Source: Thioalkalivibrio sp. ALJ21
GTDB taxonomy: Bacteria > Pseudomonadota > Gammaproteobacteria > Ectothiorhodospirales > Ectothiorhodospiraceae
Reading direction: 5' to 3'
Length of the DNA: 64,000 nucleotides
Assembly (NCBI RefSeq): GCF_000378605.1
Contig: NZ_KB905156.1
Location: 787,209 to 851,208, forward strand
Numbering within the stretch: position 1 is the first letter of the stretch; each line of letters opens with the position of its first letter. The position numbers were made by a program, and so were the translations under genes. Under the pieces are notes generated by a model. It did not search any database, was not told the origin of the DNA, and saw only the letters and a list, made by a program, of their open reading frames with translations. Of this stretch, positions 4,797-32,622 are shown one piece after another.

Positions 4797-5123
4797 TCAG
4801 AGGTGCTGGTCCAGGAAGGCGGTCAGCTGCGACTTGGACAGCGCGCCGACCTTGGTGGCTTCGACATCGCCATTCTTGAACAGCATCAGCGTCGGGATCC
4901 CGCGAATGCCGTACTTCGGCGGCGTGGACGGGTTCTCGTCGATGTTCAGCTTGGCGACTTTGACCTTGCCGGCGTATTCTTCGGCGATTTCATCCAGAAT
5001 GGGGGCGATCATCTTGCAGGGCCCGCACCACTCGGCCCAGTAGTCCACCAGGACTGGCTGATCCGCCTTCAGGACGTCTTCGTCGAAACCGGCGTCCGAC
5101 GTGTACACAATTTTGTCGCTCAC
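4797..5123 (-). CDS. trxA: thioredoxin 1
   Basis: Cytosolic dithiol-disulfide oxidoreductase of 108 residues, the standard thioredoxin length. The active site WCGPC is at residues 32-36, preceded by VLVDYWAE, and the cis-proline segment [14 protein letters not shown] is present. It is divergent from rhlB, with about 105 bases of shared promoter region. A strong hairpin follows the stop. The trxA-rho order is widespread in gammaproteobacteria. Confidence 0.97.
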
Positions 5124-6750: not shown

Positions 6751-7188
6751 TCAGGCCTTGCGGTCGCTGACCCGGATAATCACGTCCACACCCAGCAGTT
6801 CCTTGCCTTCCGGCAGCGGGGGCAGGTGCGAGATATCGACCCGCGCGGGATCGACATCTTCCAGCTCGCCGGTGTCGGTGTGGAACAGGTGATGGTGCGG
6901 ATTCAGGTTGGAGTCGTAGAACAGCTTGGTCGGATCGATCACGACCTCGCGCACCAGGCCCTTCTCCGCAAACAGCTTGAGCGTGTTGTAGACCGTGGCC
7001 TTGGAGACGCGCGACGAATGCTGCACCAGGCGGCCGAGGATTTGTTCGGCGCTCAGATGCTGATGGCGCGCGAACATCACGCGGGCGATCTCCACGCGCT
7101 GTTCGGTCGGAGAGATCGCATGTTCGCGCAGCAGCGCGCGGGCGTCGTCGACGTCCAGCAGATTCGGATTGTCAGATATAGCAGACAT
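6751..7188 (-). CDS. Fur-family regulator without cysteines (Irr/PerR-like)
   Basis: DNA-binding metalloregulator of 145 residues. The N-terminal winged helix contains the Fur-family recognition stretch SKATVYNTLKLFAEKGL near residues 62-78. A histidine cluster, HHH at 98-100, stands where Fur and Irr carry regulatory metal or heme ligands. The protein has no cysteine at all, so the structural CxxC zinc sites of Fur, Zur and PerR are missing; that and the HHH cluster resemble Irr-type proteins. Ligand and targets cannot be told from sequence. It lies between two tRNA genes on the same strand, with an AT-rich promoter region around 7190-7210. Confidence 0.82.
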   Translation of the reverse strand: MSAISDNPNLLDVDDARALLREHAISPTEQRVEIARVMFARHQHLSAEQILGRLVQHSSRVSKATVYNTLKLFAEKGLVREVVIDPTKLFYDSNLNPHHHLFHTDTGELEDVDPARVDISHLPPLPEGKELLGVDVIIRVSDRKA

Positions 7189-23767: not shown

Positions 23768-25020
<1,253 letters not shown>

Positions 25021-25083
25021 TGCTACCTCCAGGGGGAATGCTCGGGCCGCTGGAGTGCGCCCGAGTCGAATGGGGATGCGGCC

Positions 25084-25485
25084 TCAGCGAACGATTACGT
25101 GCTCGGTCTTTTCCTGGCGTTCCTTGACTTCGATGCAGAGGCTGGCCGTGGGACGCGCCAGCAGGCGGGGCAGGCCGATGGGTTCACCGCTCACTTCGCA
25201 GTAGCCGTACTCGCCGGTCTGAATACGATCCAGGGCCTGGTCGATCTTTCGCAGCAGGCGTCCCTCGCGTTCCTGTACCCGCATGGAGAGGAGCCGGGAC
25301 TCCTCCATTGCAGCGCGGTCCAGTTCGTCCGGGGTGCGCTCGTTGTCGAGGAGCCCATCTCGGGCGCCCTCGATGTCGTCCAGGATCTCGTTGCGCATTT
25401 CGAGGAGTCGCTCGCGGAAGTACCCGAGCTGGGCCTCGTTCATGTATTCCTCGGCAGGCATGGCCAGCAGTTCGTCGCGGGTCAT
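25084..25485 (-). CDS. dksA2: zinc-independent DksA paralogue (DksA2)
   Basis: RNA-polymerase secondary-channel factor of 133 residues that acts with ppGpp. The coiled-coil region and the TRRDELDRAAMEESR-type tip, here DELDRAAMEESRLLSM, are present. The zinc finger is degenerate: YGYCEVSGEPIG and SLCIEVKE each keep one of the two cysteines of the normal CxxC pairs. This is the hallmark of the zinc-free DksA2 that replaces DksA when zinc is scarce. It is the first gene of the minus-strand operon facing folE2 across a Zur box. Confidence 0.9.
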   Translation of the reverse strand: MTRDELLAMPAEEYMNEAQLGYFRERLLEMRNEILDDIEGARDGLLDNERTPDELDRAAMEESRLLSMRVQEREGRLLRKIDQALDRIQTGEYGYCEVSGEPIGLPRLLARPTASLCIEVKERQEKTEHVIVR

Positions 25486-25508
25486 GGGGTTCCGTCGGTT
25501 GCGATCAG

Positions 25509-25529
25509 GATGTTATACCATAACGTTTC
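25509..25529. promoter_or_regulatory. Zur operator between dksA2 and folE2
   Basis: GATGTTATACCATAACGTTT plus C contains the perfect inverted pair GTTAT-ACC-ATAAC (25512-25524). It closely matches the gammaproteobacterial Zur consensus and the second site at 31579 (shared GTTATA-NN-ATAACGTTT). It is placed to repress both divergent genes. Confidence 0.8.
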
Positions 25530-25600
25530 GATTGAGCCCCGACAACACGGGTCGGTCACCGGCCTGTGATGGGGTCGACCCGCTTGCAAAAAGGTGTCTT

Positions 25601-26545
25601 ATGTCCTCTACCTGTGTGTCTCCGGCCTCGCCGGATACGGAAACCTCCGCGACCGATCCGCTACCGGATATTGCCGCTTCGGCCGCTACGCACGGCTCCG
25701 CGCTCGACTGGGTTGGTATGGAAGACATCACCCTTCCGCTGTATCTGACCGGCCAGCCGGTGACCGCCCGGGCCAGCGCGGGGGTGAGCCTCGACGACCC
25801 GGGCGCGCGCGGCATCCATATGTCGCGGCTGTACGGGGCCCTGCGGCAGCTGGAGTCCTGCGAGCTGGATGTCGCGCGGCTGTGTGGTGTGCTCGAGGCC
25901 TTTCTGGCTTCGCACGATGGCCTGTCCAGCGTGGCCGAGGTCCGGCTTGCCGGTGAGCTGCCGCTGGAACGGCCGGCCCTGGTCAGTGCGGCTGCGGGCT
26001 GGAAGCGCTACCCGTTCCGGATCGCTGCACGCAGCGAGTCCGGGGCGGTGTCCCTGGAGCTGGAGGTTCAGGTGGGCTATTCCTCCACCTGTCCGTGCTC
26101 CGCCGCCCTGGCGCGGCAGGCGATCCAGGAGCAGTTCGACCGCGACTTCACACGCTCGGCCGTGGATGCGGCAACCGTGCGCGAATGGCTGGGCCGGGCC
26201 GAGGGGATTGTCGCGACCCCCCACAGCCAGCGCAGCGAGGCAACCGTTACGGTCGGTCTGGATCCGCTGATATCGACGCTGCCCCTGCCCGATCTGATCG
26301 ATGGTGTGGAACAGACGCTGGGCACAGCCCTGCAAACGGCGGTGAAGCGTGTCGACGAGAAGGCCTTCGCGCTCGCCAACGGCCGTAACCTGATGTTCTG
26401 CGAAGACGCCGTACGGCGCCTGGACAGCACCCTGCGCCCGGAGTACTCCGCCCGCGGCTATCGCATCCACGTTCGCCATCGCGAGAGTCTGCATTCGCAT
26501 GACGCGGTCGCCCGTGTAGAACGAAGGGCGACCGGCCATCGCTGA
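25601..26545 (+). CDS. folE2: GTP cyclohydrolase IB (FolE2)
   Basis: Makes dihydroneopterin triphosphate from GTP for folate synthesis without needing zinc, so it substitutes for FolE under zinc limitation. From the ATG at 25601 it has 314 residues. It contains the tunnelling-fold core, the catalytic cysteine region SSTCPCSAALARQAI near 165, the TPHSQRSEATV segment near 205, and the terminal NGRNLMFCEDAVRRL motif. The N-terminal 40 residues are variable. The Zur box lies 72 bases upstream. Confidence 0.95.
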   Translation: MSSTCVSPASPDTETSATDPLPDIAASAATHGSALDWVGMEDITLPLYLTGQPVTARASAGVSLDDPGARGIHMSRLYGALRQLESCELDVARLCGVLEAFLASHDGLSSVAEVRLAGELPLERPALVSAAAGWKRYPFRIAARSESGAVSLELEVQVGYSSTCPCSAALARQAIQEQFDRDFTRSAVDAATVREWLGRAEGIVATPHSQRSEATVTVGLDPLISTLPLPDLIDGVEQTLGTALQTAVKRVDEKAFALANGRNLMFCEDAVRRLDSTLRPEYSARGYRIHVRHRESLHSHDAVARVERRATGHR

Positions 26546-26595
26546 AGACATCGGCCCGTTGCGTACTGGCACGCCTGGCGGTAGTGACAATGCAT

Positions 26596-26626
26596 AAAAA
26601 AGCCGCCGGATTGCTCATCCGGCGGC
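26596..26626 (-). terminator. Rho-independent terminator
   Basis: Perfect 10-bp stem GCCGCCGGAT/ATCCGGCGGC with loop TGCTC, followed on the minus strand by six T (plus-strand A run 26596-26601). It terminates minus-strand transcripts, fitting the candidate sRNA or the znu operon. It can also end folE2 weakly as a hairpin. Confidence 0.88.
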
Positions 26627-26710
26627 AACGCTTACGGAGGTTGGAGAGACCAAAGGCAGAAAGCCGCCTTTCGTCTTGGCGACACACAGCTGTCCGGGCT
26701 GCGCATCTAA
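26596..26710 (-). ncRNA. candidate Fur-controlled small RNA
   Basis: A promoter, a Fur-like box and a terminator enclose about 115 bases on the minus strand. The -35 TTGACA (26739-26744) and -10 TATGAT (26717-26722) are 16 bases apart. The RNA would contain a hairpin AAAGGC/GCCTTT near 26652-26671, then the open segment CUCUCCAACCUCCG (26635-26648), which is complementary to Shine-Dalgarno sequences. It ends in a 10-bp GC stem with six U. This is the architecture of RyhB/PrrF-type sRNAs, but no sequence identity to either is recognised. An overlapping reading frame without a ribosome binding site is judged non-coding. Confidence 0.65.
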
Positions 26711-26744
26711 ATGAGAATCATACGCAAATGTGTATTGGTGTCAA
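26708..26744 (-). promoter_or_regulatory. sRNA promoter overlapped by Fur box
   Basis: On the minus strand TTGACA, 16 bases, TATGAT, a near-perfect sigma-70 promoter. The Fur-type box (plus strand TAAATGAGAATCATACGCAA and following ATG, 26708-26730) covers the -10 region and start site, so bound Fur would block initiation. Confidence 0.7.
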
Positions 26745-26798
26745 CATGCTCGGTCAGTAATGCTGTGTGCCGTTTGGTGAACCGGTATCGGCTTGAGG

Positions 26799-27659
26799 CT
26801 ACTCCGGGTTCGGGAGGGTCTGATGAGGCTGCGGCGGGTCGTGCAGGCCGCGATGCCGGTCGGCCATCGGTTCGGCCACGATCAGGTAGTCTGAGCCGTG
26901 TTTCAGCCCCTCCCGGCTGCGGGCCAAAGGCAGGGCGTGTTCACGCAGGGCCTCGATCTGGTGGTGCATGGCCTTGGCCAGACCCTCATCGCTGAGATGC
27001 GGCAGTTGCCGCAGGCACAGGTCGAGCTGGCCGTTGACGAACCGTTCGCGATAGTGGATTGGGAAATAGCGGACATCCAGAACCCGGAATCCCGCGATTC
27101 CAAGCTGGCGCATGACCCAGGATGATGGGTATTCGCGATAGGGCCGGTTGCCCGCAATCAACAGGCAGGCGTCACGCAGGCGTCCGATCTCCCTCACGAG
27201 CGCGCCGGCTTCATCTTTCGGTTCCACCAATACGTAGGGTTCGACGCCCACCAGATACAGTCGGTCGCCCACGTGGGGCCGCAACCGGTGCAGGGCGCGG
27301 TCCTGCCAGTAGGGCGCGAAACCTTCGATGGCCCCGATAAAGTAGTCCAGCAGCACCGTGTCAAAGCGTTCACCGAACAGAAGCTGATCCGACATCCAGT
27401 TGCCGACCAGGATGCGGTCCTGCCGGCGCCGCGCCGCGCCCGCCGCCTTGCGGGTCGTGCGCGCCATTTCCTGGGAGGCCGTTACCGCCGTCCAGCGCTC
27501 GGTGTCCAGGCGGCTGATCCACTCGATGGACTTGCGACCCGTCCCGGCATCAAGAAAGCTGCCCCAGGGCTGGTCGCCCTGCGCCTTCTCGATGGCCTGG
27601 AAAATCGGCGAAGTGCCATTCGCACTGGTGGATGACGAGTGGGCGGTGTTGGATGTCAT
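26799..27659 (-). CDS. class I SAM-dependent methyltransferase in the zinc operon
   Basis: Protein of 286 residues. The core begins WGSFLDAGTGRKSIEWISRL near residue 32 (SAM motif I), with FDTVLLDYFIGAIEGFAPYWQ near 100 as the motif IV region, and later basic segments. The substrate is unknown. It is the last gene of the run His-rich OMP, znuA, ATPase, permease, methyltransferase on one strand, so it is probably Zur-controlled. A methyltransferase is not part of standard Znu systems. The first 15 residues are Ser/Thr-rich and probably disordered. Confidence 0.75.
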   Translation of the reverse strand: MTSNTAHSSSTSANGTSPIFQAIEKAQGDQPWGSFLDAGTGRKSIEWISRLDTERWTAVTASQEMARTTRKAAGAARRRQDRILVGNWMSDQLLFGERFDTVLLDYFIGAIEGFAPYWQDRALHRLRPHVGDRLYLVGVEPYVLVEPKDEAGALVREIGRLRDACLLIAGNRPYREYPSSWVMRQLGIAGFRVLDVRYFPIHYRERFVNGQLDLCLRQLPHLSDEGLAKAMHHQIEALREHALPLARSREGLKHGSDYLIVAEPMADRHRGLHDPPQPHQTLPNPE

Positions 27660-27704
27660 GGCGTCAGTCGTTGCTTGCGGTGGGGTGGAACGCGTCGGGT
27701 CGGG

Positions 27705-28475
27705 TCAGCGCAGCATGGCGGCGAGGCGGGCGCCGAGCGCGAGCATGACGTTGACCAGGACCAGCACCGGTGCGAAGGGCTGATCCAGCGGCAGGCTGAT
27801 GGTCCAGGCGACCAGGAAACCGGTCAGTGCGATGCCCTGCGTCCAGAGCACGAGCCCGGTGAGGTTGCGTGCCAGCCAGGCCGCACCCCAGGCCGGCAGT
27901 AGCAGGGTGGCCAGGGCAGCAGGAAGCCCCAGGACCATACTCCCCAGCACGATAGCGGCGACCAGCCAGACGATTTCGCCGAGATGCTGCCAGACCGCCG
28001 GCCTGCTGGCCGCCGGCACATCCGGTGCGATCTGGGCATGCAGCCAGACGCGGAGCAGCACCGGGACCATCAGGACGGTCAGTAGGCCCAGACCGATCGC
28101 TGCCCAGAGCTCGTTGGGACCGGCAAAGTAAAGCTGGCCTTCAGCCCAGGCAGCGGCCGCCAGGCTGGCCTGAGCAAAGTTGGCGGCCAGTAGCGTGACC
28201 GCCGCCAGGCCGGCCAGGAAAACGGCCAGCGGCAGGCGTTCCCGATCCCGGCTGCGCTGCAGCAGCACCATGATCCCGCCACCCAGCAGCAGCGCCACGG
28301 GCAGCACCGGCCAGTGCAAGACCGAGGCGAGTACCCCGCCCACGGCCGCCCATTGCCCCAGGGCCAGCGCCTGCCAGACCGAGCCGCGCAGGAACAGACC
28401 GGCCCCGGCGAGCGCCAGCACCATGGTGACGAGCACGCCGGCAATGAAGGGTGTCAGCAGCAGGTCACCCGGCAT
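27705..28475 (-). CDS. znuB: metal ABC transporter permease, ZnuB-like
   Basis: Integral membrane protein of 256 residues from the ATG at 28475 (MPGDLLLTPFIAG), with about eight hydrophobic helices. It shows the ABC-3 family's LALGQWAAVGGVLAS segment near 45. The start overlaps the end of the ATPase gene by 11 bases. With the neighbouring ATPase and periplasmic binding protein it completes a high-affinity zinc (possibly manganese) importer. The sequence is divergent from enterobacterial ZnuB, so the symbol is by role and context. Confidence 0.8.
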   Translation of the reverse strand: MPGDLLLTPFIAGVLVTMVLALAGAGLFLRGSVWQALALGQWAAVGGVLASVLHWPVLPVALLLGGGIMVLLQRSRDRERLPLAVFLAGLAAVTLLAANFAQASLAAAAWAEGQLYFAGPNELWAAIGLGLLTVLMVPVLLRVWLHAQIAPDVPAASRPAVWQHLGEIVWLVAAIVLGSMVLGLPAALATLLLPAWGAAWLARNLTGLVLWTQGIALTGFLVAWTISLPLDQPFAPVLVLVNVMLALGARLAAMLR

Positions 28476-29073
28476 CCAGGTACTCCGCAAGTGGGTGTTT
28501 CTCCAGGCCGAGCGCCTGCAGGAAGTCATCGTCGTGGCTGGTGATCAGCAGGGTCGTCTCGGCCGGGACCGCCTTGATCAGTTCCACCGCGTCGGCACGG
28601 ACCTCGGCATCCAGATGGTTGGCGGGTTCATCCAGCAGGATCAACCGCTGCGCCGACGAGTCTTCGCCTCGGCTGGTCAGCACGGCGGCCAGACGCAGGA
28701 GTTGCCACTGGCCGCCGCTCAGGCGGTCCAGCCGCCGATCCAGCAGGGCCCGAACGCCCTCATGTTCGGGCACGCTGGCCCCCATCGCGCGAAGCCAGTC
28801 GTGCCCGGACAGGGGCCAGGGCTGCGGGCGGGCGTGGTCCTGAGCCAGCAGGCTGGGGTGCGTACGCGGGGCGAGTTCAAAACGCCCGCCGTGAACGCGG
28901 GCCTGTCCGGTGATGGCTTTCAGCAGTAGCGATTTGCCCACCCCGTTGGGTCCGGTCAGGGCCCAGCGGGCACCTGCCGGGATCTCCAGGGACAAAGGCC
29001 CGATTACCGGACGGTCGAACCCCAGGAGGGCCGACTGGGTATGCAGGATGGGCGGGACTGGCTCGGGTGGCAT
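28465..29073 (-). CDS. znuC: metal ABC transporter ATPase, ZnuC-like
   Basis: ABC ATPase of 202 residues. Walker A is GPNGVGKSLLLKAI near residue 40, the signature LSGGQWQLLRLA near 117, and Walker B RLILLDEPANHLD near 142, followed by the SHD switch histidine. It is shorter than usual ZnuC because the segment between Walker A and the signature is compact. I chose the ATG at 29073; a TTG ten codons upstream is possible. A strong hairpin precedes it after znuA. Confidence 0.82.
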   Translation of the reverse strand: MPPEPVPPILHTQSALLGFDRPVIGPLSLEIPAGARWALTGPNGVGKSLLLKAITGQARVHGGRFELAPRTHPSLLAQDHARPQPWPLSGHDWLRAMGASVPEHEGVRALLDRRLDRLSGGQWQLLRLAAVLTSRGEDSSAQRLILLDEPANHLDAEVRADAVELIKAVPAETTLLITSHDDDFLQALGLEKHPLAEYLDAG

Positions 29074-31553: not shown

Positions 31554-31598
31554 TGTTATATCGTTACACGGCGATCTCACGTTATAAGATAACGTTTT
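31554..31598. promoter_or_regulatory. tandem Zur sites upstream of the zinc uptake operon
   Basis: A strong site, ACGTTATAAGATAACGTTTT (31579-31598), has the inverted pair GTTAT-AAG-ATAAC. A weaker one, TGTTATATCGTTACA (31554-31568), lies about 26 bp nearer the gene. The strong site shares GTTATA-NN-ATAACGTTT with the folE2/dksA2 operator. Confidence 0.75.
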
Positions 31599-32151: not shown

Positions 32152-32622
32152 TCAGGCGTTGCGACAGTCCGCGCAGAGCCCGTGCAGTTCGACCATGCGC
32201 GAGTCGATGGCAAAGCCCTGAGCGGTGGCTTCGGCCTCGAGCGCCTGCGTGGCCGGGTCCGGGGTGTGGAATTCGGTGATCTGGCCACAGCCGTCGCAAA
32301 TCATCAGCGCGGATTCGTGGCGTTCGCCCGGGTGGGAGCAGGCGACGAAGCCGTTCAGGCTCTCGATGCGGTGGATCAGACCCTGTTCCAGCAGGAAGGC
32401 CAGGGTCCGGTAGACCGTTGGCGGTTTGATGCTGTGGTCATCCGAGGACAACGCATGGATCAGGTCGTAGGCCTTGATCACGCCGTCGGTGCGCAGGATC
32501 TGTTCGAGGATGCGGCGGCGCTGTTCGGTCAGTCTGGCCCCGCGTCGGGTGCAGACGCGCTCGGCGTCCGCCAGGGCCTGCTCGATATCCGCCGGACTGT
32601 GGGAATGCGCTGTCGAGGTCAT
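32152..32622 (-). CDS. zur: zinc uptake regulator Zur
   Basis: Fur-family zinc-sensing repressor of 156 residues. The winged helix contains KPPTVYRTLAFLLEQGLIHRI near 67-87. The metal sites include CSHPGERHESALMICDGCG near 95-113 and a terminal LCADCRN, giving two CxxC pairs for structural zinc, unlike the cysteine-free homologue at 6751. The operators at 25510 and 31579 are its predicted targets. It lies at the edge of the zinc island and is followed by the glycosylase gene. Confidence 0.92.
   Translation of the reverse strand: MTSTAHSHSPADIEQALADAERVCTRRGARLTEQRRRILEQILRTDGVIKAYDLIHALSSDDHSIKPPTVYRTLAFLLEQGLIHRIESLNGFVACSHPGERHESALMICDGCGQITEFHTPDPATQALEAEATAQGFAIDSRMVELHGLCADCRNA

Follow-up and report, generated by a model that had tools for sequence, protein, structure and literature searches.

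A conserved small-RNA gene of Thioalkalivibrio with a Fur-type operator-like dyad, a candidate iron-sparing RNA of the zinc island

The systems closest to the locus described here are RyhB of Enterobacteria and PrrF1/PrrF2 of Pseudomonas, small RNAs (sRNAs) of about 100 nt that have a Fur-type operator on the promoter, end in an intrinsic terminator, occur in two copies and act on the mRNAs of iron proteins. The gene sodB is a target of RyhB. The general features of the two systems are supported in part by the accessible text of PMC9410917, which also describes two further Fur-repressed iron-sparing sRNAs, FsrA of Bacillus subtilis, whose C-rich motif binds Shine-Dalgarno sequences, and IsrR of Staphylococcus, which has conserved single-stranded C-rich regions. 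For Thioalkalivibrio itself, the available part of a 2024 survey of 50 genomes (PMC11109978) presents the motifs mgtE, aceE-II, ykoW, smtA or 'Soda Lake RNA'. These resemble the present RNA as structured RNAs restricted to the genus, but are riboswitch-like or large motifs lying by genes. The same survey counts 10 sRNA candidates in all over its genomes, so the sRNA may already be listed there. No earlier description of it was found in the literature searched, including the accessible parts of PMC11109978, PMC8092127 and PMC9410917.

The analysed stretch of 64,000 nucleotides (the window) contains, on the minus strand at 26744-26596, a small-RNA gene that was established through conservation. 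It lies next to folE2 and is made up as follows.

25601..26545, plus strand: folE2 (Pfam PF02649, GCHY-1), converging on the sRNA
26799..27659, minus strand: ORF of 286 aa, upstream of the sRNA promoter on the same strand
26739..26744, minus strand: -35 box TTGACA, exact in 12 of 14 copies
26717..26722, minus strand: -10 box TATGAT, 16 bases 3' of the -35 box, TATGAT in 9 of 14 copies
26712..26726, minus strand: putative Fur-type operator TGCGTAT-G-ATTCTCA, a 7-1-7 dyad over the -10 box, assigned from sequence only
26596..26710, minus strand: sRNA body of about 115 nt (covariance model R1, 140 bits), with the 5' end placed by the -10 box
26681..26707, minus strand: stem-loop 1, 10 pairs, 4 of them changing on both sides
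26647..26676, minus strand: stem-loop 2, 96.6% of cells paired, five pairs varying on one side and one on both
26635..26648, minus strand: C-rich seed CUCUCCAACCUCCG, exact in 11 of 14 copies and complementary to Shine-Dalgarno regions
26596..26626, minus strand: intrinsic terminator, 10-bp stem and U6, 4 of 10 pairs changing on both sides

In our best reading, this sRNA would be a genus-specific analogue of RyhB and PrrF, not a homologue, with a C-rich seed like those of FsrA and IsrR. It shares with RyhB and PrrF the Fur-type operator on the promoter, the size, the terminator, the presence in two copies and an action on iron-protein mRNAs, which is here predicted. It differs in its C-rich anti-Shine-Dalgarno seed, in the absence of an Rfam match and, from RyhB, in that sodB is not a predicted target. 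At gathering score, Rfam returned two tRNAs only in the whole window and no sRNA family, RyhB (RF00057) and PrrF (RF00444) included; a search of 26560-26790 up to E 10 gave 14 matches, all far below their gathering scores, with neither RyhB nor PrrF among them. The PrrF model also had no match in the whole genome, a result that is weak alone since no control genome matched either. The conserved, mostly unpaired C-rich stretch is of the kind found in FsrA and IsrR, a likeness for which sequence was compared through Rfam only. Unlike the present sRNA, these belong to Gram-positive hosts; FsrA works with FbpABC, and of the three C-rich regions of IsrR two are located in loops, whereas the present RNA has a single such region, between stem-loop 2 and the terminator. 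Phage and plasmid collections contained no match for the sRNA.

Judged from one sequence alone, the promoter and terminator are near chance: in a scan of 25000-28600, one promoter-like site was found against 0.5 expected, and two terminator-like sites against 1.7. Such figures would favour a chance pairing of promoter-like and terminator-like sites with no gene, a reading that is refuted by conservation and now has next to no probability. The gene call is settled because the complete unit recurs in a paralogue and in 12 copies from other genomes, and a real sRNA gene at this position is strongly supported. The promoter matches the consensus at 11 of 12 positions over both boxes, as a near-consensus sigma-70 promoter, and its spacing of 16 is kept in 13 of 14 copies. 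In the five copies without TATGAT, the -10 box reads TATAAT, TATGGT or TATCAT, and every copy has at most two mismatches. The terminator stem-loop (26626-26602) consists of 10 pairs (8 G-C, 2 A-U) followed by TTTTTT. The original prediction had named the promoter, the overlapping Fur-type box, the GC stem with U6 and the exposed seed, and had proposed a search for them in relatives; their coordinates were confirmed, and conservation extends to the gene, its structure, the operator-like dyad and the seed. The predicted distance of about 115 bases to the terminator holds from the -35 box (118 bases to the stem) but not from the -10 box (about 90). Model R1 has a single match within the window, at 26596-26710, and the window copy was among the sequences used to build it.

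The predicted fold comprises the two stem-loops, the single-stranded link CUCCAACCUCCGUAAGCGUU and the terminator, with an energy of -53.2 kcal/mol (z -4.6) that none of 200 shuffles equalled. Within it, 12 of the 14 seed bases are unpaired. Of five further copies folded one at a time, four retain two stem-loops and leave the seed largely free, while L011 folds otherwise; counting the window copy, the seed is mostly unpaired in the minimum-energy fold of five of six copies. In the alignment, 96.1% of base-pair cells are paired, against 35-47% in slid controls. Furthermore, changes on both sides are seen in 9 of 30 base pairs, where shuffles give 1.8 and none of 500 reaches that number, counted on 12 distinct rows of the 13-copy alignment, from which the structure was itself derived, in its favour, and in which kinship of rows inflates counts. 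The fold also bears on a peptide gene of 24 codons (MRSPDSC...) in place of a non-coding RNA. An ATG frame of that length, ending in the seed, occurs in five of the 14 copies; it is missing in the other nine, some of which have frame-shifting indels, and the co-varying RNA pairs likewise make this reading very improbable.

A DNA search of 96 genomes (E 0.01) matched 13: the source genome, ten of the same genus and two of the family. The two family matches (G043 and G046) cover only 20 bases near the terminator and were set aside; G006 matched weakly and was confirmed afterwards as sRNA-bearing. A covariance model built from 13 copies then matched 13 of the 30 genus genomes at E 0.01. As the sole match of G010 is another RNA element, that genome was left out, which gives 14 copies in 12 of 30 Thioalkalivibrio genomes; among them, the G012 copy (L030) was found through the covariance model and checked by eye. 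The 17 non-genus genomes of the order (47 with the 30 of the genus) contained no convincing copy, and the one weak match, in G043 (L037), resembles a chance terminator match and was not counted. A pattern scan across named genomes returned six stretches, all from Thioalkalivibrio: ALJ3, ALJT, ALE14, ALJ7, T. halophilus HL17 and a MAG. The sRNA is restricted to part of this genus. Two copies are present in 2 of the 12 genomes, the source genome included, where the second (C1:437225-437362) is 89% identical over query positions 34-169 of 171. The two copies of ALJ7 (G024, L069) are separated by 3.7 kb (seeds near 5002 and 8685); a 157-aa ORF and a DUF1826 gene flank one of them, folE2 and metE the other.

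Weak model matches in G010, G003, G021 and G024 (L031, L034-L036) belong to the other RNA element and were not counted. This second element was observed at L035 (about 1520-1610), L034, L036, L049 and L055 (G021, G003, G024, G022 and G010), after the stop codon of a gene for a protein of about 150 aa, as a hairpin with a terminator. The hairpin GUCGU-CUCUCCA-ACGAC is present in three genomes, with weaker stems in G022 and G010, and its loop displays the same CUCUCC motif as the sRNA. It may be an sRNA derived from a 3'UTR, or else a partner sharing the seed.

The operator-like dyad agrees with TGAKAAT-n-ATTMTCA at 12 of 14 positions and is symmetric at 5 of 7 dyad positions. Across the 14 copies, the score against the Fur consensus ranges from 10 to 13 of 14 positions, and an element TGNNTAT-n-RTTCKCA, found with a pattern of that kind, overlies the -10 box in every copy. 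Variants include TGCGTAT-G-ATTCGCA in one ALJ7 copy and TGAGTAT-C-ATTCTCA in ALJT. In ALJT, genes for a TonB-dependent haem receptor (TIGR01785, 452.5 bits against a cut-off of 316.85) and HemS (L072:1858-5180) follow the sRNA immediately downstream on its strand. The receptor promoter, TTGACA-16-TATTATTCGCA inside a TGCGAAT-N7-ATTCGCA dyad, has the same design as that of the sRNA. The Zur-like boxes of the zinc island are of the type TGTTATA-n-TATAACA (centres 25518, 31561 and 31587) and unlike the sRNA box. Since the haem-uptake promoter shares the design and the Zur-like boxes differ, Fur appears to be the likeliest repressor. Among the Zur-like boxes, TGTTATACCATAACG (25511-25525) was observed between the dksA-type gene and folE2, and those centred at 31561 and 31587 precede the gene for a 442-aa membrane protein.

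Fur-like boxes are rare in the rest of the genome (864 kb scanned), which counts against Fur control. At 13 or more of 14 positions of TGMKWAT-n-ATWMKCA in these 864 kb, the sRNA box is the sole intergenic site, with one more site inside a gene; the box pattern with one mismatch occurs in the whole genome only in the two sRNA copies and at one intragenic site. A wider Fur regulon was sought and set aside, since the 864 kb contain too few sites matching 12 of 14 positions: four, the sRNA site included. A gene that by eye appears to be erpA is 21 bases away from one of these sites. Fur control, as originally proposed, is favoured, as an interpretation of sequence, by the conserved dyad and by the haem-uptake promoter. 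The U6 terminator tail fits an Hfq-dependent sRNA, an Hfq-like protein was found by sequence pattern near C2 140275, and the sRNA probably acts with Hfq.

The zinc island of the window includes ZigA (over cut-off), a DksA, folE2, AztA-/AztC-like transporter parts (below cut-off) and Zur. A copy of the sRNA is located in this island in 11 of 12 genomes, that of the window among them. By tblastn with ten window proteins, island genes were detected near the sRNA in 10 of the 11 other sRNA genomes, G006 included; none was found within 9.6 kb around the G022 copy or within 11 kb around the second copy of the source genome. The metE gene (Meth_synt domains) lies immediately upstream of the copies in G000 (the second), G022, G024 and G026. 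The gene folE2 is present in 11 of the 30 genus genomes, 10 of which have the sRNA, the eleventh (G007) being 79% complete; G006 and G022 carry the sRNA and lack folE2. Eight of the 12 sRNA genomes retain the convergent arrangement, with about 54 to 101 bases between the sRNA end and that of the folE2 match; the distance is 6.3 kb in ALJT and 4.7 kb in G012. The 286-aa ORF, without a Pfam or NCBIfam match, was observed in the island of eight other genomes. The linkage between sRNA and zinc island is old; linkage is not regulation.

This association is an argument for a real trans-acting sRNA under a different FUR-family regulator, serving zinc or another metal in place of iron. The source genome encodes three FUR-family proteins, one on C3 and two in the window, at about 6841-7110 and at 32155-32622 (Zur, matching the Zur model below its cut-off), and either of the latter two could be that regulator; the rarity of Fur-like boxes elsewhere also speaks for it. 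The protein at about 6841-7110 (PF01475, minus strand) was observed near two tRNA genes. Zinc control is nevertheless unlikely: the sRNA box is unlike the island's Zur-like boxes and takes the form seen in the haem-uptake promoter, and as predicted targets no zinc-island gene ranks better than 192 of 707, folE2 (start at 25601) standing at about 245 of 708. The suggested crosstalk between iron and zinc responses has the conserved gene order in its favour, and the target ranks and the differing box against it. A more specific and rather doubtful form of it is a switch in which folE2, induced through Zur under zinc starvation, would be read through antisense to the sRNA and so quench iron sparing. 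Such read-through is conceivable because the pair converges without a predicted intrinsic terminator between. In the scan of 25000-28600, no plus-strand intrinsic terminator was found between or after the two genes, and it was absent in all three of the eight convergent loci that were checked, that of the window among them.

Returning to iron, and to Fur as the preferred regulator, targets were ranked by the pairing of GUCUCUCCAACCUCCG with positions -35 to +18 of each start together with the opening energy of the target, over 707 genes called by a home-made caller in 864 kb (29% of the genome). A same-strand cluster of four genes, encoding rubrerythrin (PF02915), a protein combining a CCG cysteine-rich domain with 4Fe-4S matches below threshold, an EncFtn-like protein (PF22277) and a DUF3501 protein (PF12007), took ranks 1, 3, 18 and 21 in the first scoring and 2, 4, 20 and 23 of 707 with a second accessibility method. 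Its rank sum was reached by any four-gene same-strand cluster with 0 of 200 shuffled seeds, a control that answers the fact that the cluster had been noticed before testing. When half of the seed was kept during shuffling, it was reached in 0 of 100 cases with CCUCCG and in 1 of 100 with GUCUCUCC. In the first scoring, a cytochrome c read as sox-type, FixQ and FixO ranked 10, 11 and 17, and in a separate 400 kb (340 genes) CheA came second and an Rrf2-family protein read as IscR third.

Overall enrichment of iron proteins among the targets is weak. Of the top 30, five bind iron according to Pfam, or seven with cluster partners, compared with three or four of 28 background genes (drawn at random from rank 61 on, with 2 of 30 dropped for crossing stretch borders). 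The enrichment of iron motifs has p 0.013, yet 22 of 200 shuffled seeds equal it, and in the further 400 kb only four such genes occur, none in the top 40 (p 0.39). In total pairing, the true seed gave 100 starts below -14 kcal/mol against 126+-31 in 30 shuffles, with no excess. Exact GGAGGTTG-N-ATG occurs 18 times in the source genome against 8 for the reversed motif, and by eye no classical iron protein was among these matches. As a conserved target, sodB was rejected: among 30 SOD loci in 29 genomes, pairing was poor in most and fell below -20 kcal/mol only in G006, in G012 and at one second SOD of a genome without the sRNA. The sodB result and the Rfam searches give no support to membership in the RyhB or PrrF families, and the RNA lies outside these families as Rfam defines them. 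RyhB/PrrF-like iron sparing survives as a working mode, carried by one cluster and some single genes: predicted pairing with iron-protein mRNAs goes beyond shuffled seeds for the rubrerythrin cluster, with the general enrichment weak and sodB negative.

These figures also leave room for a real conserved sRNA, possibly Fur-controlled, with targets that are not mainly iron proteins, the rubrerythrin signal being a by-product of Shine-Dalgarno complementarity. Besides the weak enrichment and a total pairing no better than with shuffled seeds, high scores of an ExbB-family protein, an MBL-fold protein and CheA point that way. The shuffle controls for the four-gene cluster and the near-top ranks of FixQ, FixO, a cytochrome c and the IscR-like protein argue against it, and we regard it as slightly less probable than control by another FUR-family regulator.

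The pairing at the rubrerythrin start was compared in 21 of 28 genomes (12 with the sRNA and 9 of 16 without), three of the 28 loci having remained unplaced by pattern in the first scan. It lies between -13.5 and -17.4 kcal/mol in all 12 sRNA genomes, with a mean of -14.9 against -11.7 in the nine without. Among the latter, four are weak (-8.4 to -10.6), G015 has -13.0, and four near relatives (G001, G008, G010 and G020; protein 98-99% identical) keep the site, so the contrast is confounded by descent. For the seven remaining sRNA-free genomes, a separate scan put the pairing at -8.3 to -13.7 kcal/mol. Against shuffled seeds, on pairing alone, mean z was -2.23 in sRNA genomes and -0.79 in the others for rubrerythrin, -1.84 and -1.62 for the CCG protein, and -1.47 and -0.86 for the DUF3501 protein; the EncFtn-like gene, at -0.75 and -0.40, hardly beats shuffled seeds. 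Descent explains part of these contrasts.

Taken together, we favour, with a probability of roughly 0.65, a trans-acting, Fur-repressed sRNA of about 115 nt for iron sparing, found in some Thioalkalivibrio genomes only and duplicated in this one. The RNA would probably be switched on under iron scarcity: as iron becomes scarce, Fur would leave the operator over the -10 box, the sRNA would be transcribed, and its exposed seed would pair, probably with Hfq, with the Shine-Dalgarno regions of mRNAs. As to the direction of regulation, we infer that pairing would lower the translation of iron-storing and iron-using proteins. Iron sparing is the likeliest work of the sRNA, and rubrerythrin and the EncFtn-like protein would be affected before others. 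The first targets would be the rubrerythrin, CCG-domain, EncFtn-like and DUF3501 cluster, and the IscR-like regulator, the sox-type cytochrome and the cbb3 oxidase subunits are further possible ones.

Iron is poorly soluble at soda-lake pH, which makes the question of iron sparing a physiologically pointed one in these hosts. If the reading is true, a haloalkaliphilic sulfur-oxidising chemolithotroph joins the bacteria with a Fur-controlled iron-sparing sRNA. The lack of an Rfam relation to RyhB and PrrF, together with a C-rich seed as in the Gram-positive analogues, would suggest that the same solution arose independently. The best predicted target cluster, which includes rubrerythrin and an encapsulated-ferritin-like protein, hints that the RNA turns off iron storage, in the setting of an energy metabolism rich in haem and Fe-S proteins.
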